From Sphaerotilus mobilis (GTDB lineage Bacteria > Pseudomonadota > Gammaproteobacteria > Burkholderiales > Burkholderiaceae_C), in NCBI RefSeq assembly GCF_004216565.1, contig NZ_SGWV01000011.1, forward strand, positions 248,001 through 312,000: a DNA stretch of 64,000 nt, written 5' to 3'. The translations under genes were made by a program, and so were the position numbers. Each line of letters starts with the position of its first letter. Position 1 is the stretch's first letter. The notes under the pieces are model-generated. The model saw nothing but the letters and a program-made list of their open reading frames with translations, ran no database searches and was not told the DNA's origin. Below are positions 1-13,753 of the stretch, in pieces.

Positions 1-237
1 CTCGACCGGCCGGTGCCACAACTGGATGCGGCCATCGGTGGGCGCCAGCAGGCCGGCGATCATCTTCAGCAGCGTGCTCTTGCCGCAGCCTGAAGGGCCC
101 AGCAGCGTGACGAACTCGCCTTCGCGGATCGACAGGTCAACCGGCAACAGCGCCCGCGTGCCATTGGGGTAGACCTGCTCGGCCGACATGATGTCGATGG
201 CCGGGACCGTGGGCGGGTCCGCGTCGGTGGCGGTCAT
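1..237 (-). CDS. ABC transporter ATP-binding protein, N-terminal part (cut by window edge)
   Basis: Only the first 79 residues are in the window. They read as the start of a nitrate/sulfonate/taurine-type ABC ATPase (SsuB/TauB group) that would power import from the cytoplasmic face. A Walker A motif GPSGCGKST lies near residue 49, preceded by the usual REGEFVTLL strand. The ATG overlaps the stop codon of the upstream oxygenase gene as ATGA, so the two genes are translationally coupled. The NMT1-type binding protein at 1285-2289 is the natural partner, and a permease gene probably lies just outside the left edge. The family is clear. The substrate is unknown, but the riboswitch-controlled context suggests a purine or a purine breakdown product. 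Confidence 0.9.
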
Positions 238-1208
238 GCGGTGTTCTCCGTGAGCGTGGTGCGGCGGTACATCTCGACGATGTGCTCGCCAGCGGTGATG
301 GGGGCATGGCGCGCCGGGTTGTCGGCGCTGCAGCAGGTCGGCAGCACCTCGACGCGGGCGTGGTAGTCGATGTCGAAGAAGTAGGCGATCGAGTGCCGGT
401 CCCGGCCGCTCTGGGCGTTGACCACCCGGTGCAGCGTGGAGCGGTAGGCGTCGTTGGTCCAGCGCTGCATCAGGTCGCCCAGGTTGACGACGAAGCTGCC
501 CTCGATCGGCCGCGCGTCCAGCCAGCGGCCGAGTTCGTCGCGCACCTGCAGGCCGCCGGCATCGTCTTGCGCCAGCAGCGTGATGCCGCCCCAGTCGGTG
601 TGTGCGCCCGAGCCGATCTGGTCATCGAGCTGGCTGGCCTGCTGCGGCGGGTAGTGCAGCAGCCGCAGGATCGGCATGGGGTCGTGCAGGAAGGGCTCGA
701 AATGCGTGCGCGGCAGGCCCAGGCCGAGGGCGATCAGGCCCATCAGGTGACGGCCCAGCCGCTCCATCGCGGCCGCATAGGTCTCGCAGGCCTGCCGAAA
801 GCCGGGCGCATGGGCCTCGTCCGGCCACAGGTTGGGGCCGTGGTTGGGCGTGCCGGCGCGCACCAGCGGGTCGTCCAGGCCACGTTCGGCGCCGAGGTAA
901 TAGCTCTCCTTGAGATCGGCGGGCCGACCGGCTTCGAGCGCCTGCCAGCCGATCGGGTCATAGCCGCGCTTGAGGCCGCCGGAGCGTTCGATGTGGCAGG
1001 CGTTCTTGATGGCCTCGGGCAGCTCGAAGTAGCGCCGATTGACCATGAACAGGTGGCTGATCAGGGCCAGCGGCACGCCGTGGCCGACCACGTAGAAGAA
1101 GCCGTGGCGGCGGCAGGCCGCGTCGATCTGGCGGGCCACGGCGCGCGGGCCGTCGGGATCGGTGCCGAAGCTCGGCGCAAGGTCGATGACGGGCAGGTTG
1201 GCTTGCAT
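234..1208 (-). CDS. isopenicillin N synthase family 2-oxoglutarate/Fe(II) dioxygenase
   Basis: A 324-residue soluble oxygenase of the isopenicillin-N-synthase-like fold. A DIOX_N-like half starts at PVIDLAPSF, and the 2OG-Fe(II) domain carries the iron ligands in HTDWGG (His and Asp) and in STLHRVVN (distal His). RDRHSIAYF supplies the Arg-x-Ser that binds the 2-oxoglutarate carboxylate. I chose the ATG at 1208 because ACGGAGAC stands just upstream; an in-frame extension of 23 residues looks unlike the family. It ends in a 4-base overlap with the ABC ATPase gene and follows the binding-protein gene by 76 bases, so it belongs to the riboswitch-led unit that starts near 4470. The substrate is not known. 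A purine or ureide is an inference from context only. Confidence 0.88.
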
Positions 1209-1284
1209 GCGGGTCTCCGTGTGGCCTGGGCGCGCGGCTTCTCGGGGAGGTCGCAGGCGCCCAGGCTGATAGGGCATGGCGACC

Positions 1285-2289
1285 TCAGGGCATGATCTTC
1301 AGGTCCTTGACGAACTCGGTGGTGTAGACCGTCTTGAGGTCGACCTTCGAGGCATCCAGCAGCTTGTTGGCGACCATCATGTCGTAGGTCTTTTTCATGC
1401 GCTCGTCGGTCATGATGCCGATGCCGAGCTTGGCGGCGTCCCCGCCCATGACCATGCCGGTCTCCTTCATCTTGGCGATGCCGTTGGCGATGACGTCGTC
1501 GGTCATGTTCGGGTTGTCCTTCTTGATCAGCGCATTGGCCGGTGACGGGTCCCCCGTGAGGTAGGACTTCCAGCCTTCCATCGTCGCCTTGACGAAGGCG
1601 GCCACCACGGCCTTGCGCTCCTTGACGGTCTTCTCCATGCAGACCACCGAGGTCGAGTAGGGCGGCCAGCCGAAGTCCGACAGCAGGAAGACGCTGGGCT
1701 TGAACTTGCCTTCCTTCTCGATCTTGAAGGGCTCGCTGGAGAGGTAGCCCTGCTGCGCGATCTCCTTGTCGGCCATGAAGGGCTGCACGTTGAAGGTGTA
1801 GGGCTTGGCCATGTCGTCGGTGTAGCCGTAGGTGGTCTTCAGCCACGGCCAGAAGGTCGAATGGGCCGACGAGGAGATCAGCACCGTCTTGCCCTTGAGG
1901 TCCTCCAGCTTCTTGACATGGGGGTGCGCCAGCAGCACCTGCGGGTCCTTCTGGAACGAGGCCGCGACCGTCATGGCCGGCACGCCCTGCTCGCGCGCCT
2001 TCATGGTCTGCGTGTCGTAGCCCATGTAGCAATCGGCCGCGCCGGCGGCGATCAGCTGCAGGCCGTTGACCTGCGGGCCGCCCATCTTCACGGTCACGTC
2101 CAGGCCGGCCTTCTTGTAGAGGCCGGTGGCGAGTGCCTGGTAGAAGCCGCCGTGTTCGGCCTGTGCGTACCAGTTGGTCAGGTAGGTGAACTTCTCCTGC
2201 GCCTGGGCTTGCGTGTGCGTGGCAAGGGCCACAGCACCGATCAGCATGAGACGGCCGAGGGTGCGCGACGAACGAAGGAACGTGGGCAT
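1285..2289 (-). CDS. NMT1/THI5-like ABC transporter substrate-binding protein
   Basis: A 334-residue periplasmic binding protein. A signal peptide is visible (basic start, LMLIGAVALATHTQAQA, then QEKFTYLTNW). The mature part has the SsuA/NMT1 pattern: YLTNWYAQAEHGGFYQALATG, a central LEDLKGKTVLI segment opening the second lobe, and a C-terminal helical tail. The start at 2289 is set by CGGAG about 8 bases upstream; a 30-residue upstream extension has no family resemblance. It lies in the unit led by the riboswitch at 4419-4470, between the creatininase-family gene and the oxygenase gene. Proteins of this family are the ones after which the NMT1 RNA motif was named, which agrees with the RNA found here. 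The ligand cannot be read from the sequence; a xanthine- or urate-related compound is inferred. Confidence 0.88.
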   Translation of the reverse strand: MPTFLRSSRTLGRLMLIGAVALATHTQAQAQEKFTYLTNWYAQAEHGGFYQALATGLYKKAGLDVTVKMGGPQVNGLQLIAAGAADCYMGYDTQTMKAREQGVPAMTVAASFQKDPQVLLAHPHVKKLEDLKGKTVLISSSAHSTFWPWLKTTYGYTDDMAKPYTFNVQPFMADKEIAQQGYLSSEPFKIEKEGKFKPSVFLLSDFGWPPYSTSVVCMEKTVKERKAVVAAFVKATMEGWKSYLTGDPSPANALIKKDNPNMTDDVIANGIAKMKETGMVMGGDAAKLGIGIMTDERMKKTYDMMVANKLLDASKVDLKTVYTTEFVKDLKIMP

Positions 2290-2375
2290 GGCGAGGCTCC
2301 GGGGTTGAGGTTGGGGACGGTGAATGTGTGGGTCTGCGGGGATGTGTGCGTGAGCGTGTTCTGGGGGAGCGCGCA

Positions 2376-3182
2376 TCAATCGACCTCCCGCGCTGGCCAG
2401 TCCAGCCGGTGCAGGTCGGTGATGGCAGCGGCCCAGCTGTCGGCCAGCGAGTCGAGGATGGCGAGGCCCTGCTCGCGCGTGGCCGGGTGCGGGTCGCCGA
2501 TGACGCCGCTCGGGCCGAAGTCGCGGGCGACCCAGGCGGCGGTGGGCCGGCCGTCGGGTGACAGCGAACGCGGGAACTCGCGCGGGTAGTGCGCCACCGC
2601 CCGGTCCATGTGGACCGTCTCGGGCGCCAGCGCCAGGATCAGCGCGGTCTCGGCATGGCCAGCGTGCATGGCCAGGCGGCGCTCGCGTTCATCGAGGTAG
2701 CGGTGGGCCACATTCGGCACGCGCCAGGTGAAGTGCGGCACGACCACGAAGTCGCCGTGGCGCAGCCGCAGCGCACGGGCTGCCATGTCCATCACCTGCG
2801 GCTGGCCGCCGTGGGCATTGACGATCAGCAGCTTGCGAAAGCCCGCCCGCCAGACCGACTCGCCGATGTCCTCGACCAGGGCCTGCAGCGTCGCGCCACT
2901 GGTCGTCAGCGTGCCCGGGAAGTGTGTGTGTTCATCGGACTTGCCGTAGGTCAGCGGGGGCAGCGCATAGGCCGGCACGGCCGCATCCAGCCGCTGCAGC
3001 GCCGCGCCAACGACACCGGCGGCGATCAGCGCATCGACCGCGCAGGGCAGGTGCGGGCCATGCTGCTCGATGGTGCCCGCGGCCAGCACGATCACCGTGT
3101 TGGCACGGTCGGGCAGGGCCTCGATGGCCGTCCAGCTCAGATAGGGCAGGAAGCGGTGCGGGGGGATGTCGCCATGCAGCAT
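2376..3182 (-). CDS. creatininase family protein
   Basis: A 268-residue metal-dependent amidohydrolase of the creatininase/formamide-hydrolase family. The hallmark GTIEQHGPHLP (Glu and His metal ligands) is near residue 40, followed by an Asp in CAVDALI, VNAHGG in the middle and HAGHAETALI further on. That last motif replaces the usual HAGExET. These enzymes hydrolyse cyclic or linear amides and include creatininase and the riboflavin-pathway formamide hydrolase. The ATG at 3182 is preceded by CCAGGAGTGACCCG, a good ribosome site. It sits 20 bases after the RidA gene and 86 bases before the binding-protein gene in the riboswitch-led unit. In that setting it could open a purine-derived ring or ureide, but this is inference and creatinine itself is not excluded. 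Confidence 0.87.
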   Translation of the reverse strand: MLHGDIPPHRFLPYLSWTAIEALPDRANTVIVLAAGTIEQHGPHLPCAVDALIAAGVVGAALQRLDAAVPAYALPPLTYGKSDEHTHFPGTLTTSGATLQALVEDIGESVWRAGFRKLLIVNAHGGQPQVMDMAARALRLRHGDFVVVPHFTWRVPNVAHRYLDERERRLAMHAGHAETALILALAPETVHMDRAVAHYPREFPRSLSPDGRPTAAWVARDFGPSGVIGDPHPATREQGLAILDSLADSWAAAITDLHRLDWPAREVD

Positions 3183-3202
3183 CGGGTCACTCCTGGGTGG
3201 GG

Positions 3203-3664
3203 CTATGCATCGGGCGTGCCGAGCCAGACGGTGGCCTCGACCTCGACCAGGATGTCCGGCGACGGCAGCATCGCGCTGACCTCCACCACGGTCGACGCGG
3301 GCGGCAGGCCGGGGAAGAAGAGCTTGCGCACGCGGCTGTAGTTCGGGAAGTGGTCCAGGTCGCGGAAGTACTGCACCAGCTTGACGACCTGGTCCATGCG
3401 CGCACCGGCGCTCTCCACCGTGGCGCGGATGCGGTCCAGCACATACCAACTCTGCGCCAGGATCGGCCCCTCGCGCCAGTCGGTCGAAAACTCGTGGCTG
3501 CGCCCGAGCAGCGCCTGGGCCTCGGGCGGGATGTCGTCATAGCCGCGCACGATGCGGCCGGCGGCCGGATCGACCGCGATCACGCCCGACAGCAGCAGCC
3601 AGTCGCCACAACGCCGATAGGCGCTGTAGCGGGCCAAGGGTTGGGCGATGTCCTGCGTGTTCAT
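3203..3664 (-). CDS. RidA family (YjgF/YER057c/UK114) protein
   Basis: A 153-residue member of the RidA superfamily, small trimeric proteins that hydrolyse reactive enamine/imine intermediates or act in catabolic pathways (RutC is the pyrimidine example). The conserved core is visible as LLLSGVIAVDP near the N-terminus, DRIRATVESAGARMDQVVKL in the middle and STVVEVSAML toward the end. Two ATGs lie six bases apart. GAGGAGG directly abuts the upstream one at 3670, leaving no spacing, and is at proper distance from the one at 3664, so the latter is chosen. It lies 11 bases downstream of the flavodoxin-like gene and 20 bases upstream of the creatininase-family gene. A role in clearing an unstable imine made by one of the neighbouring oxygenases is plausible but unproven. 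Confidence 0.88.
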   Translation of the reverse strand: MNTQDIAQPLARYSAYRRCGDWLLLSGVIAVDPAAGRIVRGYDDIPPEAQALLGRSHEFSTDWREGPILAQSWYVLDRIRATVESAGARMDQVVKLVQYFRDLDHFPNYSRVRKLFFPGLPPASTVVEVSAMLPSPDILVEVEATVWLGTPDA

Positions 3665-3675
3665 CGGCATCCTCC

Positions 3676-4287
3676 TCAGGCGCGCACCCGCGACAGCGTG
3701 TGGCGCACACGCGCCAGGAAACGGCTGCGGTCCGCGTGACTGGCATAGTTCATCGCATGCAGCTGCAGCCAGGTGGTGCGGCAGCCACGGGCATACAGCG
3801 GCTTCAGGCCGCGCAGGAACAGGCGCCGGCCCGGGTCGCCGATCCAGCGCAGCCACCACCACGGCGAGCCCGAGGTCGTGATGCCGCAGAACCAGCGGAT
3901 GTTGGTCAGCGCGCCGACGATCGGCCGGTGCCGCGAGCCGCCCAGGCCGAAGCTCACGCCCGGCAGGAAGACCCGGTCCAGCCAGCCCTTGAGCAGGGCC
4001 GGCGGGCCGTACATCCAGGTCGGGTAGACGACCACCCAGCCCTCGGCCCAACGCAGCGCGTCCACATGGGGCTGCACCGCCGCGATGTTGCGGTCGGTGT
4101 CGACCAGGTAGCTGCGCTTCTCATCCGGGCTCAGCACCGGGTCGAACTGGCCTTGCGCATGCAGGGCGTAGAGGTCGACCTCGCGCAGCTCGTGGCCAGC
4201 CTCGCGCAGGGCGTCCGCTGCCGTCTGCCGCAGCGCGGCGCTGTAGCTGTTTGGATCGGGGTGGCACCAGAGCAGCAGGATCTTCAC
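3676..4287 (-). CDS. NAD(P)H-dependent flavodoxin-like oxidoreductase (Flavodoxin_2 / MdaB-KefF type)
   Basis: A 203-residue flavoprotein of the NQO1/MdaB/KefF type. The first strand KILLLWCHPDP with NSYSAALR forms the FMN/FAD phosphate loop, and WVVVYPTWMYGPPALLKGWLDRVF is the classic second signature of the family near residues 85-110. The chosen GTG at 4287 gives the normal family N-terminus; there is no good Shine-Dalgarno sequence, and upstream GTG starts would add unrelated residues. It is the first gene after the riboswitch at 4419-4470, about 130 bases downstream of it. Known relatives reduce quinones or other small electrophiles with NAD(P)H. Whether it also feeds electrons to the neighbouring Rieske oxygenase is speculative, since Rieske reductases normally carry an iron-sulfur centre and none is visible here. 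Confidence 0.86.
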   Translation of the reverse strand: MKILLLWCHPDPNSYSAALRQTAADALREAGHELREVDLYALHAQGQFDPVLSPDEKRSYLVDTDRNIAAVQPHVDALRWAEGWVVVYPTWMYGPPALLKGWLDRVFLPGVSFGLGGSRHRPIVGALTNIRWFCGITTSGSPWWWLRWIGDPGRRLFLRGLKPLYARGCRTTWLQLHAMNYASHADRSRFLARVRHTLSRVRA

Positions 4288-4387
4288 GGTGGACGTGCGT
4301 CGGTTCTTGATCAGGTCGATGCCGCACCCGCGCGCTGCGCGGCCACTGCCGCGACGGGTCACGCCGGGTGCAACACCAGAACTTGGC

Positions 4388-4408
4388 GTGGCTCACGCGA
4401 TGAGCCAC
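4388..4408. repeat. hairpin between riboswitch and first gene, containing a 17-base palindrome
   Basis: A perfect 8-base-pair stem (GTGGCTCA / TGAGCCAC) with a five-base loop lies just downstream of the riboswitch core, on the minus strand. No T-run follows, so it is not a standard terminator. Its core GGCTCA-N5-TGAGCC recurs at 5788, 10479 and 49672. Confidence 0.6.
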
Positions 4409-4418
4409 ACCGGCTGGT

Positions 4419-4470
4419 CAAGAGCAATTTCCTGCCACCCGAGGCGGGTGGCTGAACGCTTCTACTCTTG
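4419..4470 (-). promoter_or_regulatory. NMT1-motif RNA (xanthine/urate riboswitch), copy 1
   Basis: Read on the minus strand, the element has a P1 stem CAAGAG(U)/(G)CUCUUG, a 5' internal-loop strand AGAAGCGUUCA, a perfect P2 hairpin GCCACCCG-CCU-CGGGUGGC, and a 3' loop strand AGGAAAUU. This architecture and both loop strands match my memory of the NMT1 RNA motif, reported as a xanthine/uric-acid riboswitch upstream of NMT1-type transporters and purine genes. The same loop strands occur in the second copy at 5649-5718, with different stems. It precedes the flavodoxin-RidA-creatininase-transporter-oxygenase unit by about 130 bases. The stems and loops are seen; ligand and switching mode are inferred from the family. 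Confidence 0.85.
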
Positions 4471-4575
4471 TGCGAGATCAATGCATGGGCCGTGCCAGCC
4501 GTGTATCGCGGGGATCGTGGCCTTCATGCACCGGCGACAGGCGCGGTGCACCGGGACACATCGCCGCGACCAACC

Positions 4576-5607
4576 TCAGCGGTGCACCTCGGACTCGCCG
4601 TGGCGCGCCAGCAGTTCCATCAGGTGCTTGCGGATCAGCATGCCGGGCCGGTCGCTGTCCATCGAGAACTCGACGCCGCGCCGGCGTGTGTCGACCAGCG
4701 CGTCCGGATCGGTCGACTCCAGGATGGCCTTGTCCTCGCGCGTGATCTCGGCATCGAAGTCGATCAGCAGTTGCGCCGGGCAGTCTTCCTCGGTGTCGTT
4801 GCGGAACAGCCATTGGCAGAGCTGGATGTGGCCGTCGTCGATGGGCGTGAAGCAGTTGATGATGACGTGGCGCACCCCGCCGGGGTACTCGATGTCCAGC
4901 CGGCGCGAGAAGGGCAGGTAGTAGGCATTGCGCATGTGGCGCGTGGTGATGGGCTCGCTCACGCCGCTGATGCGCTGAAAGGCGGGCGGGTTGACGGCGG
5001 CGATCACCGTCTCGGCATGGAAGCCGGCCTCGGTCGTCACCAGCTCGTAGCGGCTCGGCGCCGGCTGGGCCGCGACGCCGAAGGTCGCGCGGTGCACGAA
5101 GCTGAAGTGCGAGTTGTCGAAGCTGTTCTCCAGCGCCCGCAGCGGGCTGCAGGCCCAGGTCTCGTGGAACTGGAAGATGGTGCGCCAGCCCGGCGCGCCG
5201 AACTCGGGGATGTCGGGGATGTCGGCCAGCGGCGCCTCGTCCGGGCCGACCAGCGCGACCCAGGCATAGCCGTGGCGGGCCACGCAGCGATACGCGGGCG
5301 TGCAGTAGTCGGGCGGGATGGCCCGCTCGGGCGGGTACTGCGGGATCTCGATGACACGACCGCTGCGGTCATAGCGCCAGCCGTGATAGCCGCACTGGAT
5401 CGTGCCGCCCTTGCACCAGCCCAGGGACAGCTTGGCGGTGCGGTGGCAGCAGCGGTCCTTCAGCGCGGCGGGTTGGCCGTGTTCATCGAGGAAGAGCACG
5501 ATCGCCTCGCCCAGCAGCGTGAACGGACGCGGTCCGTCGGCCAGGTCGGTCAAGGGCATCACGGCGTGCCAGAAGCGGCGGAAGACGGCTTGTTGCGCGG
5601 TCAGCAT
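4576..5607 (-). CDS. Rieske [2Fe-2S] aromatic-ring-hydroxylating-type oxygenase, alpha subunit
   Basis: A 343-residue Rieske non-heme iron oxygenase. The Rieske centre is CCHR followed about 16 residues later by CGYHGWRYD (pattern C-x-H...C-x2-H) at residues 49-72. The mononuclear iron site is marked by FDNSHFSFVHRATFG near residue 160. Length and layout fit single-component-type terminal oxygenases such as the vanillate, N-methylxanthine (NdmA) or HpxD relatives. The ATG at 5607 has AAGGAG eight bases upstream. A riboswitch at 5649-5718 sits in its leader, so xanthine or urate probably controls it. No ferredoxin-reductase partner is adjacent. A purine substrate is inferred from the riboswitch and from purine-acting Rieske relatives; the exact reaction is unknown. 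Confidence 0.88.
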   Translation of the reverse strand: MLTAQQAVFRRFWHAVMPLTDLADGPRPFTLLGEAIVLFLDEHGQPAALKDRCCHRTAKLSLGWCKGGTIQCGYHGWRYDRSGRVIEIPQYPPERAIPPDYCTPAYRCVARHGYAWVALVGPDEAPLADIPDIPEFGAPGWRTIFQFHETWACSPLRALENSFDNSHFSFVHRATFGVAAQPAPSRYELVTTEAGFHAETVIAAVNPPAFQRISGVSEPITTRHMRNAYYLPFSRRLDIEYPGGVRHVIINCFTPIDDGHIQLCQWLFRNDTEEDCPAQLLIDFDAEITREDKAILESTDPDALVDTRRRGVEFSMDSDRPGMLIRKHLMELLARHGESEVHR

Positions 5608-5648
5608 GGGGTCTCCTTCCGGTCGGGTGGACCAGCGTGGTGAAGGGA

Positions 5649-5718
5649 ACCGAGCAATTTCCGGCCGCACGCAGCACCGGCCTCGGGCCAGGTGCGGGGG
5701 TGAACGCTTCTACTCGAC
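5649..5718 (-). promoter_or_regulatory. NMT1-motif RNA (xanthine/urate riboswitch), copy 2
   Basis: On the minus strand a P1 stem GUCGAGU/GCUCGGU (with G-U pairs) encloses the same internal-loop strands as copy 1: AGAAGCGUUCA on the 5' side and GGAAAUU on the 3' side. P2 is longer here: CCGCAC/GUGCGG closed over an inner GGCC-CGA-GGCC hairpin. The 3' end of the element lies about 25 bases before the AAGGAG ribosome site of the Rieske oxygenase gene, close enough for control of translation initiation. Identity of both loops while stems and loop lengths differ is the pattern expected of a conserved ligand pocket. Confidence 0.85.
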
Positions 5719-5753
5719 GTGCAGCGGTCTTTGCAGGTCGCGTGCCAGGCATG

Positions 5754-5836: not shown

Positions 5837-6052
5837 TTACATCGGCTTGATGTTCGCGGCTTGCAGGCCCTTCGGGCCTTGCTTGACTTCGAACTCGACC
5901 TTCTGGTTTTCCTGCAGGCTGCGGAAGCCGCCGCCGTTGCGGATTTCGCTGTGGTGGGCGAACAGGTCCTTGGAGCCGTCAGCCGGCGTGATGAAGCCGA
6001 AGCCCTTGCCGTCGTCGAACCACTTGACCGTGCCTTGTTGAGTCGTGCTCAT
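5837..6052 (-). CDS. cold-shock domain protein (CspA family)
   Basis: A 71-residue single cold-shock domain that binds single-stranded RNA/DNA and acts as an RNA chaperone or antiterminator. Both RNP motifs are present: KGFGFITP (RNP1) and DLFAHHSEI (RNP2), after the typical [10 protein letters not shown] start. Length equals that of family members. The ATG at 6052 has AAAGGA about 9 bases upstream. The gene is monocistronic, with its own terminator at 5754-5780 and a spacer of some 270 bases to the preceding gene that can hold the long leader usual for cold-shock genes. It separates two parts of the purine island and has no evident link to them. Confidence 0.95.
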
Positions 6053-6324
6053 GGGAGTTTCCTTTGTGTGTGTCGGAAAAAACAAAAACACCCGCCGGCA
6101 AACGCCTGCGGGGACAGCAACACTCAAGAAACGTCAAACCGGGAGTTGGAAGACTTGGCCGGCGGTGATCGGTGCAACCTGCGAGAGGTTGTGAACCACT
6201 GCGGAAGAGGAGCAAGACCTTGAAGAAACGGCCTTGGTGCATGTCTGTGGCTGCAGGATAGCCTGTTTGTGCGGGGTAGCACCCATTTATTTATGGCGAG
6301 CACACATCAGTGGGTGATGCGGCC

Positions 6325-6843
6325 TCAGCGCAGGCGCCAGAAATCACGGTGCAGCGCGGCGATCTCGTCTTCGACCTCGGGCACCGGGCCCCAGACGCCG
6401 ATGGCCTTCTGGCCGCGTGCGAAGACATCGCGGCAGGGCAGGTCCAGCGTCGGGTTCTCGGCGTGGTTGCCGGTCAGGTGGAGCAGGCGGGCCTCGGACA
6501 TGCCGTAGACCAGCCGGCCGATGTGGGCCCAGTACTGCGTGCCGGCACACATGCAGCAGGGCTCGACGGTGGTCACCAGCGTGCTGCGCCAGAGCGTGTG
6601 GGCATCGAAGCGGCGGGCCGCCTCGCGCGCCAGCACCGCCTCGGCATGGTTGACGCTGTCGACGTTGCCCTGCGTGAGCAGCACCGTCTCGCCGTCCGGC
6701 CCGATCAACAGCGCACCGAAGGGGTGATGGCCTTGTGCCAGTGCCTGTGCGGCGATGTCGTTGGCGGCGCGCAGCCAGCGCGCCAGCTGGGCTGGAGTAG
6801 GAGCGGGCGTAGGGGCGGCAGTAGGGTCGTCGGGTGTCGTCAT
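6325..6843 (-). CDS. zinc-dependent nucleobase/nucleoside deaminase, guanine-deaminase-like
   Basis: A 172-residue cytidine/deoxycytidylate-deaminase-fold enzyme. The zinc site is complete: VNHAEAVLA (His ligand and catalytic Glu) near residue 70, and VEPCCMCAG (two Cys) near residue 100. The HAE plus PCxMC pattern followed by YWAHIGRLVYG resembles the GuaD/tRNA-adenosine-deaminase branch, which includes bacterial guanine deaminases that make xanthine. It lies 31 bases after the permease gene on the same strand, at the far end of a purine-catabolic run, which favours guanine to xanthine. No strong Shine-Dalgarno is visible before the ATG at 6843. Other deamination substrates cannot be excluded. 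Confidence 0.85.
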   Translation of the reverse strand: MTTPDDPTAAPTPAPTPAQLARWLRAANDIAAQALAQGHHPFGALLIGPDGETVLLTQGNVDSVNHAEAVLAREAARRFDAHTLWRSTLVTTVEPCCMCAGTQYWAHIGRLVYGMSEARLLHLTGNHAENPTLDLPCRDVFARGQKAIGVWGPVPEVEDEIAALHRDFWRLR

Positions 6844-6874
6844 GGCAACAGTCTGCCGTCTCGCTCGTCGCGCT

Positions 6875-7660
6875 TCAATGCCCCTGCGACCCCCGATGTG
6901 CCCAGCCCGTCGTGCGGCGCTCGACCACCGAGAACAGCTCGTACATGGCCATGGCCATGGCACCGACCACCACCAGGCCGGCGAAGGCCAGGCCCATCTG
7001 CATGGAACTGCCGGCGCTGATCAGGAGGTAGCCGATGCCCTCGTTGGCAGCGGTCATCTCCGAGACCGTGGTGCCGACGAAGGCGAGCGTGATGGCGACC
7101 TTCAGCGAGCCGTAGAAGTAGGGCATCGAGCGCGGCAGGCCGACCTTGATCAGCACGTCCCAGCGCTTGGCGCCCAGCACGCGCAGCACGTCTTCCAACT
7201 CGGGCTCCAGCGTTGCCAGACCGGTGGCGATGTTGACCATGATGGGGAAGAAGCTGATCAGGAAGGCGGTCAGCACGGCCGGGCCAACCCCGATGCCGAA
7301 CCACACCACCAGGATGGGCACGAAGGCGGCCTTGGGCAGGGCGTTGAAGGCCGTCATCAACGGGTAGACGGCGGTGTAGGCCATGCGCGAGCTGCCGATC
7401 AGGAAGCCCAACAGCACGCCCACGACGATGGACAGGCCGAAGCCGGCCATCGTCACCCAGAAGGTGCGCCAGGCGTGGCCGGCGATGGTCTTGCCGTGTT
7501 CGGCGATCGCCTGCGCGATCGCCCAGGGGCTGGGGAAGATGAACTCCGACACGCCCAGGCCGCTGCACAGCAGCTGCCAGATCAGCAGCGTGGCGACCAG
7601 CAGGAGCCAGGGCGAGGCTTGTTCGAGGCGGCGTGCGCGTGTCGTCTGCAGGCTGCTCAT
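6875..7660 (-). CDS. ABC transporter permease (SsuC/TauC type)
   Basis: A 261-residue inner-membrane permease with about six hydrophobic segments, the first at PWLLLVATLLIWQLL. The binding-protein-dependent permease signature (EAA loop) is seen around ARTLEPELEDVLRVLGAKRWDVLIKVGLP-like residues 140-170. The ATG overlaps the stop of the ATPase gene by four bases, so the importer subunits are coupled as binding protein, ATPase, permease (9554 to 6875). Being between ureide/allantoin genes and a guanine-deaminase-like gene, the system probably imports a purine-related compound. No riboswitch of the NMT1 type precedes this importer in the window, unlike the one at 1-2289. Confidence 0.9.
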   Translation of the reverse strand: MSSLQTTRARRLEQASPWLLLVATLLIWQLLCSGLGVSEFIFPSPWAIAQAIAEHGKTIAGHAWRTFWVTMAGFGLSIVVGVLLGFLIGSSRMAYTAVYPLMTAFNALPKAAFVPILVVWFGIGVGPAVLTAFLISFFPIMVNIATGLATLEPELEDVLRVLGAKRWDVLIKVGLPRSMPYFYGSLKVAITLAFVGTTVSEMTAANEGIGYLLISAGSSMQMGLAFAGLVVVGAMAMAMYELFSVVERRTTGWAHRGSQGH

Positions 7661-8469
7661 GGCGTGGCCTCCGTGCGGTTCTGGCGGATCGCGCCGATGT
7701 GGCCGCGCAGCTCATGCACGATGGCGGTGAACTCGGGTGTGTAGGTCAGCTCCAGGTCACGCGGACGCGGCAGGTCGATCTCGCGGCGGACCACGAAGCG
7801 GCCGGGGCTCTTGCTCATGACGTAGACCGTGTCGGCGAGGAAGACGCTCTCGCGCAGGTCGTGCGTGACCAGGATGACGTTGAACTTCTGCGTCGCCTGC
7901 AGGTCGCGCAGCACGCACCACAGCTCTTCGCGGGTGAAGGCATCGAGCGCGCCGAAGGGCTCGTCGAGCAGCAGCATCTTGGGCTCGTGGATCAGCGCGC
8001 GGCAGATCGACGCGCGCTGCTGCATGCCGCCGGAGAGCTGCCACGGGAACTTGTCCTCATAGCCGCCCAGGCCGACGCGCTGCAGCAGCGCGCGGGCTTT
8101 TTGCTCGTATTCATCGCGCTTCTGGCGAAACGAGCTGCGCCAGGGTTCGACGATCTCCAGCGGCAGCATGACGTTGGCCACCGTCGTGCGCCAGGGCAGC
8201 AGGCTGGGCGCCTGGAAGGACATGCCGGTGATCTTCAGCGGACCGTCGACCTCGCGGCCGTCGATCACGACCGTGCCGCGACTGGGCCGCCTGAGGCCCG
8301 TCGCCAGCTTCATGAAGGTCGACTTGCCACAGCCCGACGGGCCGACGATGGCGATGAACTCGCCCTCGTGGACCTTCAGGTTGATGTCCTCGACGGCGTA
8401 GTGGCCGGCGGCTTCCAACTCGTCGTTGTAGGCGAGCCAGACGCCATCAAAGTCGACGAAGGCGCTCAC
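7657..8469 (-). CDS. ABC transporter ATP-binding protein (SsuB/TauB type)
   Basis: A 270-residue ATPase with all motifs intact: Walker [10 protein letters not shown] near residue 43, signature LSGGMQQR near residue 148, Walker B KMLLLDEPFGALD and the switch His in VTHDLRES. It drives import with the permease at 6875-7660 and the NMT1-type binding protein at 8466-9554. Its start and stop each overlap the neighbouring gene by four bases (ATGA), a tight three-gene translation chain. The insert FRQKRDEYEQKARALL between Walker A and the signature is charged and somewhat long for the family. Substrate inferred only from the purine-degradation context. Confidence 0.93.
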   Translation of the reverse strand: MSAFVDFDGVWLAYNDELEAAGHYAVEDINLKVHEGEFIAIVGPSGCGKSTFMKLATGLRRPSRGTVVIDGREVDGPLKITGMSFQAPSLLPWRTTVANVMLPLEIVEPWRSSFRQKRDEYEQKARALLQRVGLGGYEDKFPWQLSGGMQQRASICRALIHEPKMLLLDEPFGALDAFTREELWCVLRDLQATQKFNVILVTHDLRESVFLADTVYVMSKSPGRFVVRREIDLPRPRDLELTYTPEFTAIVHELRGHIGAIRQNRTEATP

Positions 8470-9554
8470 TTCTTCTTGGCCCCGAAGATGTCGCGCTCGG
8501 CCGCGCTCGGCAGGAAACTGCCGTTCCAGATCGCGGCAACGTTGACCCGTTCCTTGGTGGCAAACGCGTCCGAGACCTGACTGGCCATCAGCGCCAGGCG
8601 CGGGCCCTTGACCTCGCCGAAGCCTTCGGCGCGCGCGTCCGGCGTCAGCACGGTGGCGTCCAGCGCCAGCTGCAAGCGGCGGGTCTCCAGCGCGGCATTG
8701 ACGATGCCATCGCGTTCCTTGACGGTGGCGACCGCTGCAGCCGGGTCGGCGATGACGTCCTTCAGGCCCTTGGTGAAGGCGCGCAGGAAGGCCTTCACCG
8801 CGTCCGGGTTCTTCTTGAGGAAGTCCTCGCCGACGATGATCGCGTTGCCGTAGAGCTTCACGCCGTGCTGCGGGTAGGGCAGCACCACGATGTCCTCGGT
8901 CTTGACGCCGCGGGCTTCGAGGTTGAGCAGCGAGGTGAAGGAAAAGCCGGTGATCGCGTCGATGTCGCCGCGCACCAGCATGGTCTCGCGCAGCGGCGGG
9001 TCCATCGCGGTCCAGGCCACGTTGGTGATCTTGTTCTCGGCCGCGAAGATCGGCCAGGCCTTGCGGCCGGCGTCGAAGACCGGCGCACCGAGCTTCTTGC
9101 CGCTGAGGTCCGAGGGCTTGCTGATGCCGCTCTTCTTCAGGGCCAGCACCGCCGCCGGCGTGTTGTTGTAGACCATCATGACGGCGACCGGCTTGTTGGG
9201 CACCGTCGGGTTGTTGGCGTGGAACTCCATCAATGCGGCCAGGTCCGCAAAGCCCATGTCATAGGCACCCGAGGCCACGCGGGTGACGGTGCCGCCCGAG
9301 CCGTTGCCGGCGTCGACGGTGACGGTGAGCTTCTCGGCCTTGTAATAGCCCTTGGTGGCCGGCACCAGGAACAGTGCGGCCGGACCCTCGAAGCGCCAGT
9401 CGAGCTGGAACTTGATGGCGGTCTCTTGCGCCAGCGCCGGGCTGACGGCGGCCAGTGCCATCGATGCGCCGGCGGCGAGGCTGCAGATCAGGCGGATGGA
9501 CAGGTCCAGTGCGCGGCGGCGGGGCAGGGCTTGCGAGCGGTCATCGTGGTGCAT
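8466..9554 (-). CDS. NMT1/THI5-like ABC transporter substrate-binding protein
   Basis: A 362-residue periplasmic binding protein. A long signal peptide is visible: a basic stretch LPRRRALDLSIR, the hydrophobic ICSLAAGASMALAAVS and an ALAQ/E cleavage site near residue 46. The mature part begins FQLDWRFEGPAALFLVPATKGYY and contains DLSGKKLGAPVFDAGRK at the lobe junction, as in SsuA/NMT1 relatives. AGGA stands about 8 bases before the ATG at 9554. It is the first of three coupled importer genes. The sequence differs clearly from the other NMT1 protein at 1285-2289, so the island holds two separate importers rather than a recent duplication. Confidence 0.9.
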   Translation of the reverse strand: MHHDDRSQALPRRRALDLSIRLICSLAAGASMALAAVSPALAQETAIKFQLDWRFEGPAALFLVPATKGYYKAEKLTVTVDAGNGSGGTVTRVASGAYDMGFADLAALMEFHANNPTVPNKPVAVMMVYNNTPAAVLALKKSGISKPSDLSGKKLGAPVFDAGRKAWPIFAAENKITNVAWTAMDPPLRETMLVRGDIDAITGFSFTSLLNLEARGVKTEDIVVLPYPQHGVKLYGNAIIVGEDFLKKNPDAVKAFLRAFTKGLKDVIADPAAAVATVKERDGIVNAALETRRLQLALDATVLTPDARAEGFGEVKGPRLALMASQVSDAFATKERVNVAAIWNGSFLPSAAERDIFGAKKK

Positions 9555-9641
9555 GGTGGCGTCCTGGCTGGGGGTTTGGAGTGAGCCCAGTCCAGGGTGC
9601 AAGAACCATGCGCACGGTCGACGCGCCAAAGCGGTGCGTCT

Positions 9642-9663
9642 GGGCGTGCCTTGAGGCACGCCC
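9642..9663. other. strong GC hairpin in the gap between M20 hydrolase and importer genes
   Basis: A perfect nine-base-pair stem GGGCGTGCC / GGCACGCCC with a TTGA loop lies ten bases past the M20 stop codon. No T-run follows on either strand. It could protect the transcript end or reduce expression of the importer relative to upstream genes. Confidence 0.5.
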
Positions 9664-9672
9664 CGCGCCAGA

Positions 9673-10965
9673 TCAGCGCAGCAGGTCCAGCAAGGTGCGC
9701 GCGACGACCTTCGTGGCACGTCGCAGGTCGTCCAGCACGATGTGCTCATCGGCCCGCTTGGCGTTGGACTCGCGCACGGTGCGCGGGCCGGCGCCGTAGA
9801 TCACCGCCGGGATGCCGCGCTCGCAGTACAGCCGCACATCGGTGTAGAGCGGCGTGCCGGACTCGGGGATGGGCTCGCCGAAGACCTCCTCGCCGTGGCG
9901 CTGCAGGGCCTCGACCAGCGGCCGGTTGCCGGCCAGCGGCTTGAGCGCGTGCGCCATCAGCATGCGCTTGATGTCGACCGTGACGCCGGGCACCGTGGCC
10001 GCTGCCGCGCGGATGACGGCGTGCAGCGTGGCCTCGACCTCGTGCGGGTTCTCCTCGGGGATCATGCGGCGATCGAGCTTGATCACGACCTTGCCGGGGA
10101 TCACGTTGGTGTTGGTGCCGCCCTGGATCAGGCCGACGTTGAGGTAGGGGTGGGTGATGCCCTTGACCGACGAGCGCACCTGCTTGTAGAGCACGTTCTG
10201 CGCATACAGCGCGTTGAGCACGGCGGTGGCGCCCTGCAGCGCGTCGACGCCGCTGTCGGGAATGGCGGCATGGGCCATCACGCCGTGCACCGTCACCTCC
10301 ATCTGCAGACAGCCGTTGTGGGCCGTCACGACCTGGTAGCTGAAGCCGGCGGCGATCTCGAAGTCGGGCTTGGTGAGGCCGTGGTCCAGCAGCCAGCCGG
10401 GGCCCAGCTCGCCGCCGAATTCCTCGTCGTAGGTGAAGTGCAGCTCTACGCCGCCCTTGAGCGGGTTCTGGCTCGACGGGCTCATCGACTGAGCCAGTGC
10501 CTCGACCGCCCGCACCGCGTAGGTGAAGGTCGAGAAGTCGCACTTGCTGACCGCTGCGGCGCGGCCATAGAGCTTGCCGTCGGCGACGTCGCCGCTGTAG
10601 GGGCCATGTGTCCAGCCTTCGCCCGGCGGGACCACGTCGCCGTGGGCGTTCAGGGCGATCACCGGGCCGCCCTCGGCATAGCGGCGGCGCACGATCAGGT
10701 TGGTGATGGATTCGAGCCCGGCGGCGCGCACGGCCTCGGCCGGCACGGCGTGTTTCTCGGCGACCAGGCCCATGGCGGCGAGCAGCTCGGCGGTGCGTTC
10801 CGCGTGGGGCGCGTTGTTGCCGGGCGGCGTGTCGGTCGGCACGCGCACGAGTTCCTGCAGGAAGCGCACCTGCTCGTCGAAGTGCTCGTCGATCCAGCGG
10901 TCGAGGGCGGCGTAGGAAGGGGTGGCGCTGGCGGTGGGAACAGCGTGGTCAGGCGAGTCGCTCAT
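9673..10965 (-). CDS. M20 family metallohydrolase (ArgE/DapE/AllC-like)
   Basis: A 430-residue dinuclear zinc hydrolase of the M20/ArgE-DapE family. NAHGDVVP carries the first His-x-Asp pair, YDEEFGGELGP the catalytic Glu and metal Glu, and the dimerisation domain follows from about residue 200 to 310. A GGTNTNVIPGKV segment is typical of the family. Members remove acyl, carbamoyl or peptide groups from amino-acid-like substrates. The gene sits 57 bases after the allantoate amidohydrolase fusion gene in the same direction, which makes a ureido or N-carbamoyl compound of purine breakdown a sensible guess. The ATG at 10965 has GGAAAG upstream. The substrate cannot be determined from sequence. 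Confidence 0.87.
   Translation of the reverse strand: MSDSPDHAVPTASATPSYAALDRWIDEHFDEQVRFLQELVRVPTDTPPGNNAPHAERTAELLAAMGLVAEKHAVPAEAVRAAGLESITNLIVRRRYAEGGPVIALNAHGDVVPPGEGWTHGPYSGDVADGKLYGRAAAVSKCDFSTFTYAVRAVEALAQSMSPSSQNPLKGGVELHFTYDEEFGGELGPGWLLDHGLTKPDFEIAAGFSYQVVTAHNGCLQMEVTVHGVMAHAAIPDSGVDALQGATAVLNALYAQNVLYKQVRSSVKGITHPYLNVGLIQGGTNTNVIPGKVVIKLDRRMIPEENPHEVEATLHAVIRAAAATVPGVTVDIKRMLMAHALKPLAGNRPLVEALQRHGEEVFGEPIPESGTPLYTDVRLYCERGIPAVIYGAGPRTVRESNAKRADEHIVLDDLRRATKVVARTLLDLLR
10479..10495. repeat. 17-base palindromic repeat inside the M20 gene
   Basis: GGCTCATCGACTGAGCC, identical to the intergenic copy at 5788-5804, lies within the coding sequence and is read as part of ALAQSMSP on the minus strand. 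An intragenic copy of a palindrome that is also intergenic is unusual. Confidence 0.55.
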
Positions 10966-11022: not shown

Positions 11023-12774
11023 TCAGGCGAGGTGTTCGAGCAGGTGCAAGAAGGCCCGCACGCTCAGATCGATGTCGTCGTTGGTGCTCGATTCGAGCGG
11101 GTTGTGGCTGATGCCCGCGTTCAGGCCGCGCACGAACAACATGGCCTGTGGCATGACCTCGTGCAGCTTCATCGCGTCGTGGCCGGCCCCGCTGGGCATG
11201 CGGTGCAGCGGCAGGCCGAGGGCGGCAACGGCGGCTTCCCAGCGCGCCTGCCACGCCGGTGCGCTCGGGGCGGCCGAGGCGCGCATGGTTTCTTCCAGCG
11301 TGAACTGCAGGCCACGTCGCTCGCAGATGCGGGCCAGTTCGGCGCGCACGTCGTCGGCCAGCGCGTCGCGGGCGGCGTTGGTGGTGGCGCGCAGGTCCAG
11401 GCTGAACGCGCAGCGACCGGGCACGACGTTGATCGAGCCTGCCGGCACGGCCAGCATGCCGATGGTGCCGACCACGTCGGGGACCGAGGCGGCGCGGCGC
11501 TCGACATAGAGCGCCAGTTCGGCGACCGCCACGGCGGCGTCGCGGCGCCGGTCCATCGGCGTGGTGCCGGCGTGGCTGGCCATGCCGATGACCTCGCCGG
11601 TGTAGCGCACGCTGCCGTTGATCGAGCGCACGATGCCCAGCGGCAGGTCCAGCTCGCTGAGCACCGGGCCCTGCTCGATGTGGACCTCGACGAAGCCGAG
11701 GTAGCGCGTCGGGTCGCGCGCCACCTTGCCGATGTCGTCGACGCACAGGCCGGCGTGCTGCATGGCCTGGCGCATCGTGATGCCGTCGGCATCGGTCTGG
11801 TCCAGCCATGTGCTGTCGAAGTGGCCGGTGACGGCGCTGGAGCCCAGGAAGGTGGCCTTGTAGCGCTGGCCTTCCTCTTCGGCGAAGCCGATCACTTCGA
11901 GCCCGTGGGGCAGGCGCCGACCGGCGCGGTGCAGCTCGCGCACGCAGGCCATGGCCACCAGGATGCCGAGCCGGCCGTCGTACTTGCCGCCGTTGCGCAC
12001 GGTGTCGTAGTGGCTGCCGGTCAGCAGGCGTGGCGCTGAAGGATCGCTGCCGTGGTAGATGCCGACGACGTTGCCGACCGCATCGATCGAGACCTCGTCG
12101 AAGCCGCAGTCCTCGCGCATGCCGTGCGCCAGGCGCTGGGCGCAGGCGCGGTGGGCATCGGTCAGGTAGGTGACGGTCAGGGCGCCGTCGACGTCGCTGT
12201 GCTGTGCCAGCTTCTCGGCCCAGTCCCACACCAGGTTGCCCAGCGTGGGCTCGACGCCGAACTTGTCGTTCAGGCGGATCTCGGCGATGCGGTGGATGTT
12301 GCGCAGCGCCTCGGCACGTTCGATGTCGACCGGGTGGCGCAGGCGGCGCTCGAAGGTCGCGATGATCTCGTGGCGGTTCAGCCCCAGGCCACGCGGACCG
12401 CGCACCGCGAGGATGAAGGGAAAGCCGAACCTCGCGTTGTAGTCGGCATTGAGCTGCTGGATGTGGGCGAACTCGGCCGGCGTGCAGTCGGTCAGGCCGG
12501 CCTTGCCCTGTTCGTTCGTCGACTCGGCCGTCAGGCTCTTGCTGACCATGGCCTTGCCGGCGAGCTCCGGGTGGGCTCGGATCAGCCGCAACTGGGCCTC
12601 GACGCCGGCTTGTGCGAGCACCGTGACCATGGCGTGCTTGAGGGCCCCCAGCGACACGAAGGGCCGCTGCGCCCAGGCCGCTTCGGCGATCCAGGGCGAG
12701 TGTTCGTAGGTGCCGTCCAGTGCCTGCGTGAAGTCGGCCTGCGACAGGCCGTTGAGGTGATCGAGGGTCAGCAT
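11023..12774 (-). CDS. bifunctional OHCU decarboxylase / allantoate amidohydrolase
   Basis: A 583-residue fusion. Residues 1 to about 165 are 2-oxo-4-hydroxy-4-carboxy-5-ureidoimidazoline decarboxylase (UraD), with the catalytic His in IRAHPELAGK (His68), and yield S-allantoin from the product of hydroxyisourate hydrolase. From about residue 175 the protein is an M20-type allantoate amidohydrolase: GSHYDTVRNGGKYDG (metal His and Asp), FAEEEGQRY (Glu) and EVHIEQGPVL (His). Thus one polypeptide covers the steps before and after allantoinase, whose gene is 13 bases upstream. This domain combination is known from other beta-proteobacteria. The start at 12774 gives the normal UraD N-terminus. All catalytic motifs appear intact and there is no sign of a frameshift at the junction. 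Confidence 0.93.
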   Translation of the reverse strand: MLTLDHLNGLSQADFTQALDGTYEHSPWIAEAAWAQRPFVSLGALKHAMVTVLAQAGVEAQLRLIRAHPELAGKAMVSKSLTAESTNEQGKAGLTDCTPAEFAHIQQLNADYNARFGFPFILAVRGPRGLGLNRHEIIATFERRLRHPVDIERAEALRNIHRIAEIRLNDKFGVEPTLGNLVWDWAEKLAQHSDVDGALTVTYLTDAHRACAQRLAHGMREDCGFDEVSIDAVGNVVGIYHGSDPSAPRLLTGSHYDTVRNGGKYDGRLGILVAMACVRELHRAGRRLPHGLEVIGFAEEEGQRYKATFLGSSAVTGHFDSTWLDQTDADGITMRQAMQHAGLCVDDIGKVARDPTRYLGFVEVHIEQGPVLSELDLPLGIVRSINGSVRYTGEVIGMASHAGTTPMDRRRDAAVAVAELALYVERRAASVPDVVGTIGMLAVPAGSINVVPGRCAFSLDLRATTNAARDALADDVRAELARICERRGLQFTLEETMRASAAPSAPAWQARWEAAVAALGLPLHRMPSGAGHDAMKLHEVMPQAMLFVRGLNAGISHNPLESSTNDDIDLSVRAFLHLLEHLA

Positions 12775-12787
12775 GTCGAAGCGGTCC

Positions 12788-13753
12788 TCATTCCCAGATG
12801 AACGCGGTGGACGCGTCGAAAGGGTGGGTCTGGCGCCAGTGATTGGCGATGTCGATGCGGCGCGTGACCCAGACGCGGTCGTGCGCCTGCACATGGTCCA
12901 AGAAGCGCTGCAGCGCTTTCATGCGGCCGGGCCGGCCCAGCAGGCGGCAGTGCATGCCGATCGACATCATCGACGGCCGTTCGTCGCCTTCGGCCCAGTG
13001 CACGTCGAAGGCGTCCTTGAGGTATTGGAAGAACTCGTCGCCATGCGAATAGCCCTGCGGCAGCGCGAAGCGCATGTCGTTGCAGTCCAGCGTGTAGGGC
13101 ACGACCAGGTGCGGGGCCAGCGCGCCGTCGGTCTTGCGCACCTGCAGCCAGAAGGGCAGGTCGTCGCCGTAGTAGTCGCTGTCGTAGGCGAAGCCGCCGT
13201 GATCGGCCACCAGGCGGCGGGTGCGGGGGCTGTCGCGGCCGGTGTACCAGCCCAGCGGACGCTCGCCGGTCAGGCGCTCGATGATGTCCATGCCGGTGCG
13301 CAGGTGGGCGCGTTCGGTCTCGGCGTCGACGTTCTGGTAGTGGATCCAGCGCCAGCCGTGGCAGGCGATCTCGTGGCCGAGTTCGACGAAGGCCTGGGTC
13401 ACGTCGGGGCAGCGTTCCAGCGCCATCGACACGCCGAAGATGGTCAGCGGCAGGCCACGCCGCTCGAACTCGCGCAGGATGCGCCAGACGCCCACGCGCG
13501 AGCCGTATTCGTAGATGCCCTCCATCGACAGGTGACGGTCCGGGAAGGCTGGCGGGTTGAACATCTCGGAGAGGAACTGCTCGCTGCCGGCGTCGCCGTG
13601 CAGCACGCTGTTCTCGCCACCTTCCTCGTAGTTCAGGACGAACTGGACGGCCACGCGGGCCTGGCCCGGCCATTGCGCATGGGGCGGGTGGCGGCCGTGG
13701 CCGCGCAGGTCGCGGGGATAGCGCGGGAGGCTGGCGGGGGTCGGTTCGGTCAT
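12788..13753 (-). CDS. puuE: allantoinase, polysaccharide-deacetylase type (PuuE)
   Basis: A 321-residue NodB-fold hydrolase of the PuuE type, which opens allantoin to allantoate without the cyclic-amidohydrolase fold. Typical elements are YPRDLRGHGRHPPHAQWPG at the N-terminus, FVLNYEEGGENSVLHGD, YGSRVGVWRILREFE, the GHEIACHGWRWIHYQ metal-site block and YDSDYYGDDLPFW. Length matches PuuE proteins of about 310 residues. The ATG overlaps the stop of the GntR-type regulator gene by four bases, and the fusion gene for the flanking steps follows after 13 bases. Regulation by the co-transcribed GntR protein is likely. Confidence 0.94.
   Translation of the reverse strand: MTEPTPASLPRYPRDLRGHGRHPPHAQWPGQARVAVQFVLNYEEGGENSVLHGDAGSEQFLSEMFNPPAFPDRHLSMEGIYEYGSRVGVWRILREFERRGLPLTIFGVSMALERCPDVTQAFVELGHEIACHGWRWIHYQNVDAETERAHLRTGMDIIERLTGERPLGWYTGRDSPRTRRLVADHGGFAYDSDYYGDDLPFWLQVRKTDGALAPHLVVPYTLDCNDMRFALPQGYSHGDEFFQYLKDAFDVHWAEGDERPSMMSIGMHCRLLGRPGRMKALQRFLDHVQAHDRVWVTRRIDIANHWRQTHPFDASTAFIWE

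Follow-up and report, generated by a model that had tools for sequence, protein, structure and literature searches.

The closest described counterpart of the locus considered here is the regulon of the xanthine riboswitch class (NMT1 motif, Rfam RF03054) reported by Yu and Breaker in 2020 (PMC7373994). Published members of this class bind xanthine or urate and turn genes off at the level of translation; since they switch off when xanthine binds, the regulated genes should act before xanthine, and they are so described by the discoverers, who found it notable that the class controls no genes for the breakdown of oxidised purines (PMC7373994). The object of the present analysis is a riboswitch-controlled gene cluster of Sphaerotilus mobilis, located at the beginning of a stretch of 64,000 nucleotides (hereafter the window; positions 248,001 to 312,000 of contig NZ_SGWV01000011.1, or G000:C5:248001-312000 in our numbering of the 4.65 Mb genome). 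With the published regulon the cluster and its relatives share the riboswitch family, divergent riboswitch pairs and the kind of genes found first behind them, namely those for an NMT1/tauA binding protein, a DIOX_N/pcbC Fe(II)/2-oxoglutarate (2OG) oxygenase, a Rieske oxygenase (hcaE), a PRK12393 amidohydrolase and tadA. The two accounts diverge in the function proposed, which is purine oxidation in the published work and pterin breakdown here. The main text of that article contains none of the terms pterin, pteridine, lumazine or creatinin, and its available parts describe neither the mutual exclusion of oxygenases nor the long gene block found here.

Other described systems resemble the cluster in part. 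In the route of Variovorax sp. F1 and Arad3529, a PRK07583-like deaminase lies directly 5′ of a Rid gene, as in the block of relatives described below; the available text of that report covers this deaminase and carboxypeptidase G, and no riboswitch, oxygenase or creatininase-family protein (PMC9513972). The S. mobilis genome has instead a deaminase of the type of PDB entry 2paj. The methylxanthine N-demethylases NdmA and NdmB are likewise Rieske oxygenases with intact metal motifs, but they are distant from the enzyme of the window (108.6 and 90.6 bits), the saxitoxin-pathway enzymes SxtDIOX and SxtT being its other nearest solved structures (104.6 and 104 bits); moreover, unlike for NdmA and NdmB, no Rieske-type reductase is found among the genes examined beside the window's Rieske gene. 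Finally, the Rut pyrimidine pathway is built from analogous parts (oxygenase, NAD(P)H reductase, Rid protein and amidohydrolase), to which relatives of the cluster add a TetR regulator, yet the Rid protein falls far below the RutC model (32.2 versus 169.1 bits) and the regulator of the relatives far below that of RutR (132.4 versus 368 bits).

The cluster had been read in an earlier note, made from the letters of the window, as a module oxidising purines by an alternative chemistry. Its genes and two riboswitches lie on the minus strand as described there (Table 1), forming a single metabolic module under xanthine/urate-type RNA control with an importer and two unrelated oxygenase families, and the tie to purine catabolism is borne out. 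We propose, as the probable reading, that this module serves the catabolism of pterins, feeding the ordinary purine route and being repressed by its product, xanthine.

The Rieske gene, with an AGGAG-type ribosome site 5′ of its start, and the long operon each follow a riboswitch, and these two are the only ones found genome-wide by the RF03054 covariance model above its gathering cut-off of 36 bits. By analogy with the published members, both aptamers would bind xanthine or urate and turn translation off. The weaker of the two is unlikely to be a chance match, because Leptothrix discophora (locus L040) has a riboswitch of 42.4 bits at the equivalent position 5′ of its Rieske gene; in that species, whose Rieske protein is 93% identical to that of the window, the arrangement matches with both riboswitches included. 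Within the window the genes of the long operon, which are those listed by the earlier note, are separated by gaps of 11, 20, 86 and 76 bases. The operon nevertheless passes the window edge, where genes for an ATP-binding cassette (ABC) ATPase, a permease, an amidohydrolase and a flavin adenine dinucleotide (FAD) oxidase are followed by ureD. As for the recurrence of the same gene set behind riboswitches elsewhere, it is complete in L. discophora, but, the window apart, only 6 of the 56 family loci include a creatininase-family gene in the neighbourhood retrieved.

These family loci derive from a sample of 299 genomes of the family, in 56 of which the riboswitch was found; the 56 neighbourhoods were fetched from the 55 riboswitch genomes other than our own, and 17 of them, interrupted by contig ends, are shorter than 20 kb. 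In a second sample, evenly drawn across the phylum, the riboswitch is present in 17 of 398 genomes, of which 10 lie outside the family, and 11 neighbourhoods were taken from it, with gene counts made by eye. In the family genomes other than our own, 94 riboswitches were located by the covariance model (3 of which score under the Rfam cut-off and 91 above it), and the first gene behind them encodes an NMT1/Tau-type binding protein in 39 cases, a 2OG oxygenase of a subgroup here called 2OGb in 27, a Rieske oxygenase in 22, a deaminase in two and something else in four. Riboswitches occur in both orientations in 34 of the family neighbourhoods. Among the family genomes, the riboswitch accompanies 27 of the 35 that bear the Rieske gene (p 4e-16), 21 of the 25 with the creatininase-family gene (p 1e-13) and 11 of the 18 with a 2paj-type deaminase (p 4e-5), these being Fisher p-values that ignore shared ancestry.

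A further feature of the regulon is the apparent exchange of its oxygenase. A Rieske enzyme 56-82% identical to that of the window is encoded in 25 of the 56 family neighbourhoods and 2OGb in 28, with both in none and neither in three; in the 11 neighbourhoods of the phylum sample the corresponding figures are two, eight, none and one. In other words, among 67 riboswitch neighbourhoods with 27 Rieske and 36 2OGb genes, the two never co-occur. The loci with neither type in the stretch fetched are L134, L148, L169 and L206, the last having the 2OG type on another contig of its genome (L205). A similar partition is seen in 37 full-length loci chosen by their creatininase-family gene, which partly share lineages with the riboswitch samples: at a limit of 50% identity, which drops two of 11 Rieske-scored loci whose proteins are 29-31% relatives, nine have the Rieske, 17 the 2OG enzyme, none both and 11 neither. 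The simplest reading of this pattern is that Rieske and 2OGb, although unrelated, probably carry out one and the same step, and because the genera g21 and g115 each contain both states, the exchange has probably happened more than once. The Rieske protein of the window retains its metal motifs (CxH..CxxH and DxxHx4H). The 2OG oxygenase of the window, whose HxD...H and RxS motifs are also intact and whose nearest solved structures are 9ovh and 6jyv, belongs to another 2OG subgroup than 2OGb, and in some loci accompanies either exchange enzyme.

A second line of evidence comes from the amidohydrolase of the operon. The family names given by NCBIfam (PRK12393, 8-oxoguanine deaminase) had pointed to an enzyme of the 3hpa type, an assignment ruled out by identity and by diagnostic columns. 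Specifically, the operon protein scores 470.3 bits with 2paj, versus 297.9 with 3hpa and 278.7 with an 8-oxoguanine deaminase entry; it is 52% identical to 2paj and 41% to 3hpa, and is also grouped with 2paj in a tree. At 23 columns that discriminate the two subfamilies, picked with its own sequence excluded, it has the 2paj state in all 23, and the other copy of the deaminase family in the genome has it in none. This other copy is 72% identical to 3hpa and lies outside the window at G000:C4:162999-167209, about 2 kb behind the gene for the urate oxidase PuuD. The operon enzyme belongs therefore to the 2paj subfamily, and deaminase activity on isoxanthopterin or pterin-6-carboxylate can be predicted from its sequence. 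Entry 2paj reportedly corresponds to the isoxanthopterin deaminase described by Hall et al. (2010). Riboswitch-linked relatives come still closer to it, with 64% identity in Klebsiella and 83% and 90% in two genomes of the same order, whose operons encode a binding protein, the Rieske enzyme, ATPase, permease and deaminase. An isoxanthopterin deaminase is known from environmental DNA, Sargasso Sea amidohydrolases being reviewed as deaminating both isoxanthopterin and pterin-6-carboxylate (PMC5270733). In addition, a plasmid record labels as 'Isoxanthopterin deaminase' a homologue of 46% identity adjoining a riboswitch-led 2OG gene, and at L042 a 2paj-type deaminase is the first gene behind the riboswitch.

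The remaining genes of the operon form, together with the importer, a conserved block of reductase, Rid protein, creatininase-family protein, importer and FAD oxidase. Among 68 non-cyanobacterial loci picked by creatininase (L040-L107), some of them short, the creatininase-family gene is accompanied by the binding protein in 65, the FAD oxidase in 60 and the Rid gene in 58, and the block recurs with variations in records of Klebsiella, Pantoea and Rhizobium. In the Klebsiella and Pantoea clusters, a PDR/VanB reductase takes the place of the flavodoxin-fold protein 5′ of the deaminase, Rid and creatininase-family genes, which suggests that the flavodoxin-fold oxidoreductase is a probable supplier of electrons. 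One such block, on a Klebsiella pneumoniae plasmid (L196:3441-15957), stands together with a riboswitch-led operon for binding protein, 2paj-type deaminase and 2OG oxygenase.

Concerning the single proteins of the block, the earlier note had assigned to the Rid protein the clearing of an imine intermediate, which finds no support, as its motif PPASTVVEV has a serine (in STVVEV) and lacks the imine-deaminase arginine, presumably located before xxVEV in RidA. No arginine occupies that site in 73 of 74 cluster Rid copies, the match to the 74th ending before it, and the nearest solved structure is 3lyb (202.8 bits). The creatininase-family protein meets the Pfam superfamily model and falls below the NCBIfam creatininase equivalog cut-off (108.3 versus 235 bits); residues E39, H41, D50 and H124, which we take to be its metal ligands, are conserved across at least 97% of the 99 copies in the clusters. 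The binding protein has as nearest solved structure 3ix1, a binder of formyl-aminopyrimidine (45.9 bits). A literature search yielded nothing usable on PDB 6v42/6v43, on creatininase with Rid or guanidine, or on tetraoxypteridine.

A second deaminase of the block, PRK07583-like and at least 41% identical to the probe, is present in 29 of the 37 full-length loci. In Variovorax sp. MHTC-1, 15 bases lie between its end and the Rid match, and the Variovorax sp. F1 enzyme, a proven pterin deaminase, was cloned by You et al. through a primer in a conserved downstream 'endoribonuclease' gene (PMC9513972). The cluster deaminases of Variovorax and Rhizobium are 37.9% identical to each other, which fits the 37.0% published there for the F1 enzyme and Arad3529. 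The block deaminase is thus a putative counterpart of the F1 pterin deaminase, matched by position and identity rather than by accession, and with 444 residues against the 399 published. At L048 and L134 it is the first gene behind the riboswitch; matches of this type are found in 8 family neighbourhoods, two of which hold only 29-31% relatives.

Because both the 2paj-type and the Variovorax/Arad3529-type amidohydrolases are pterin deaminases in the literature, a pterin is a more likely substrate than a purine; an N-substituted purine, the other option of the earlier note, is a conceivable alternative. For the order of the steps, the end product and the roles of the other enzymes, we infer the following scheme. 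A pterin would be taken up by the NMT1/ThiY-type ABC importer, and the 2-amino group of its 2-amino-4-oxopteridine ring would be removed by a deaminase, here the 2paj-type amidohydrolase. The Rieske enzyme would carry out one oxygenation, a step for which sister genomes would use the unrelated 2OGb in the same setting. The flavodoxin-fold reductase, FAD oxidase, Rid protein, creatininase-family hydrolase and second 2OG oxygenase may process the ring or the side chain, and further oxidation with amide hydrolysis would yield xanthine, to be degraded by xanthine dehydrogenase, PuuD and the UraD/allantoate enzymes. Xanthine, once accumulated, would stop translation through both OFF riboswitches. 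A precedent for such a conversion is said to have been given by McNutt (1963-64), whose Alcaligenes reportedly transformed isoxanthopterin via trioxo- and tetraoxypteridine and xanthine-8-carboxylate to xanthine. If this route holds, the riboswitch senses the end product, and its control amounts to plain product repression. Enzymes of the creatininase family catalyse the opening and closure of cyclic amides, so the member in the block can be conjectured to be a candidate for the ring contraction. A bolder version, possible but in our view doubtful, is that feedback control of a pteridine-to-xanthine ring contraction is the chief role of the riboswitch class, with an exchangeable Rieske or 2OG ring hydroxylation, where the creatininase-family enzyme of some genomes would perform the hydrolysis and recyclisation of the tetraoxypteridine isomerase reported in the 1960s, and the ligand in some hosts may be a pteridine or xanthine-8-carboxylate.

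Several observations weigh against the pterin proposal. Of the 56 family neighbourhoods, only 7 encode an enzyme of the 2paj type (at least 54% identity; the 31% paralogue of L151 is not counted), and 4 of the 11 outside encode a close one, while 7 of the 18 family genomes with such a gene have no riboswitch. A deaminase of the cytidine-deaminase (CDA) fold is instead encoded in 39 of the 56, and would fit guanine-type purines equally. The two kinds share no family neighbourhood, yet they are not strict alternatives, because outside the family L198 and L210 hold both, the L210 gene being only 40% identical to 2paj; our own locus has a 2paj-type gene plus a different CDA-type gene, and L064 a 38% paralogue plus a CDA-type gene. 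A close relative of the Variovorax F1/Arad3529-type pterin deaminase is lacking in our own genome, where the best match is 29% identical. Moreover, the long block has to be regarded as optional to the riboswitch module, as creatininase is absent from most riboswitch genomes (35 of 56) and neighbourhoods; of the 25 family genomes that have it among the 299 searched, only 7 carry it near the riboswitch. A riboswitch was found in 23 of the 37 full-length creatininase-chosen loci, and clusters L045, L052, L056, L176 and L182 have none over the cut-off; the pattern-based scan used for some of the loci misses riboswitch variants. Minimal modules also have no enzyme to which ring contraction or decarboxylation can be assigned, and the functions proposed for the proteins of our own genome derive from sequence and gene context.

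The minimal module of importer, oxygenase and deaminase would be accommodated about as simply by the salvage of guanine bearing N-methyl or other modifications, which would be imported, oxidatively N-demethylated by the Rieske or 2OG enzyme and deaminated as guanine to xanthine, the latter shutting the riboswitch. Both oxygenase classes include known N-demethylating enzymes, NdmA and NdmB are among the nearest solved relatives of the Rieske protein, and the prevalence of the CDA-fold deaminase agrees with this scheme; its only representative searched, that of L079, has as best match guanine deaminase (62.9 bits), level with a CMP/dCMP-deaminase-type entry. The similarity to NdmA is, however, about equal to that to the saxitoxin-pathway enzymes, the operon amidohydrolase falls in the 2paj rather than the 3hpa subfamily, and the Rid/creatininase/FAD-oxidase block and the Variovorax-type pterin deaminase would be left without a role, so that we regard methylguanine salvage as rather unlikely.

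An alternative oxidation of hypoxanthine, xanthine or urate replacing xanthine dehydrogenase and urate oxidase, as suggested by the earlier note, is favoured by the comparison of riboswitch-linked dioxygenases with Klebsiella HpxD/HpxE made by Yu and Breaker (PMC7373994), and by the ordinary urate-route genes adjoining the cluster. Although neither enzyme is encoded in the window, profile searches locate XdhB at 1237.5 bits and, as urate oxidase, a PuuD-type enzyme at 430.2 bits, both elsewhere in the genome. XdhB is present in 250 of the 299 family genomes at the limit applied and in 55 of the 56 with the riboswitch, the sole one without a match being 80% complete, and a xanthine-OFF switch is ill-suited to a step that consumes xanthine or urate. 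The replacement was consequently rejected, and an HpxDE-like oxidation is, on the whole, improbable. We consider very improbable a pathway that scavenges nitrogen from another creatinine-, hydantoin- or pyrimidine-like compound (a cyclic ureide or amidine) and is merely shut down while purine nitrogen abounds. The creatininase-family hydrolase, the cytosine-deaminase-like enzyme and RutR-like regulator of relatives, the adjoining ureD and, in Rhizobium, the adjoining urea carboxylase and allophanate hydrolase would suit it, but the creatininase and RutR models are missed widely and the 2paj-type deaminase is left unexplained.

Table 1. Coordinates of the riboswitches and genes of the S. mobilis cluster and of its neighbours (window positions, unless a contig is given).
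Feature	Position	Strand	Basis or remark
Xanthine (NMT1) riboswitch 1, 5′ of Rieske gene	5647..5720	-	RF03054, 37.4 bits
Xanthine (NMT1) riboswitch 2, 5′ of long operon	4417..4472	-	RF03054, 57.7 bits, E 3e-10
Rieske non-haem iron oxygenase (Rieske + VanA_C)	4576..5607	-	Pfam
Flavodoxin-fold NAD(P)H oxidoreductase	3676..4287	-	Pfam Flavodoxin_2/FMN_red
Rid-family protein	3203..3664	-	Pfam Ribonuc_L-PSP
Creatininase-family hydrolase	2376..3182	-	Pfam Creatininase, 239.2 bits
NMT1/ThiY-type periplasmic binding protein of ABC importer	1285..2289	-	Pfam NMT1
Fe(II)/2OG oxygenase (DIOX_N + 2OG-FeII_Oxy)	234..1208	-	Pfam
ABC ATPase, start of gene	1..237	-	operon runs on beyond window
Permease, outside window	G000:C5:246496-247413		
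2paj-type deaminase (amidohydrolase), outside window	about C5:245114-246493		
FAD oxidase, outside window	C5:243637-about 245100		
CDA-fold deaminase (TadA/guanine-deaminase-like), neighbour	6325..6846	-	Pfam dCMP_cyt_deam_1
Second NMT1/Tau-type ABC importer (permease, ATPase, binding protein), neighbour	6875..9749	-	Pfam + NCBIfam
UraD-allantoate amidohydrolase fusion, ordinary urate route	11023..12894	-	OHCU_decarbox + M20

The genes neighbouring the cluster belong in part to the same context. The type of the CDA-fold deaminase next to it is present in 18 of the 56 family riboswitch neighbourhoods and the permease type of the second importer in 21; a cold-shock protein gene (5837-6127) stands between the two gene groups. 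Of the downstream urate-route genes that had been reported nearby, the UraD-allantoate amidohydrolase fusion (NCBIfam PRK13799, 971.7 bits, below the cut-off of 1087; UHCUDC domain, 178.7 bits, cut-off 96.25) and an allantoinase-type polysaccharide-deacetylase domain were seen.

Homologues of the cluster proteins were also met in other settings. Genome G105 carries two consecutive copies of the creatininase block (L191). Cyanobacterial creatininase-family homologues (L108-L119) are 54-56% identical; in the eight of these loci examined the neighbours are mostly unrelated, with the exception of L114, which adjoins a relative of the FAD oxidase, and a divergent neighbour gene is common to six of the eight. 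On the Agrobacterium plasmid p3 (L201) a pterin-deaminase-like amidohydrolase and a BMP-type ABC importer lie near the cyanuric-acid genes atzD/E/G, and the Pseudomonas sp. ADP plasmid (NC_004956) encodes a homologue 47% identical to the L048 protein.

On balance, the cluster is real and larger than first described, the reading as a substitute for the purine enzymes fails, and a xanthine-repressed pterin pathway is, with reasonable though not high confidence, the best supported. If true, this would explain why a riboswitch class controls importers, oxygenases and deaminases and yet no genes for the breakdown of oxidised purines. It would also provide candidates for the genes by which the pterin ring of folates is degraded, a process for which PMC9513972 gives carboxypeptidase G and the deaminase as the only ones cloned. 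The data suggest, furthermore, a mutual replacement of two unrelated iron oxygenases under a single switch, so that the reaction can be tested with either enzyme.

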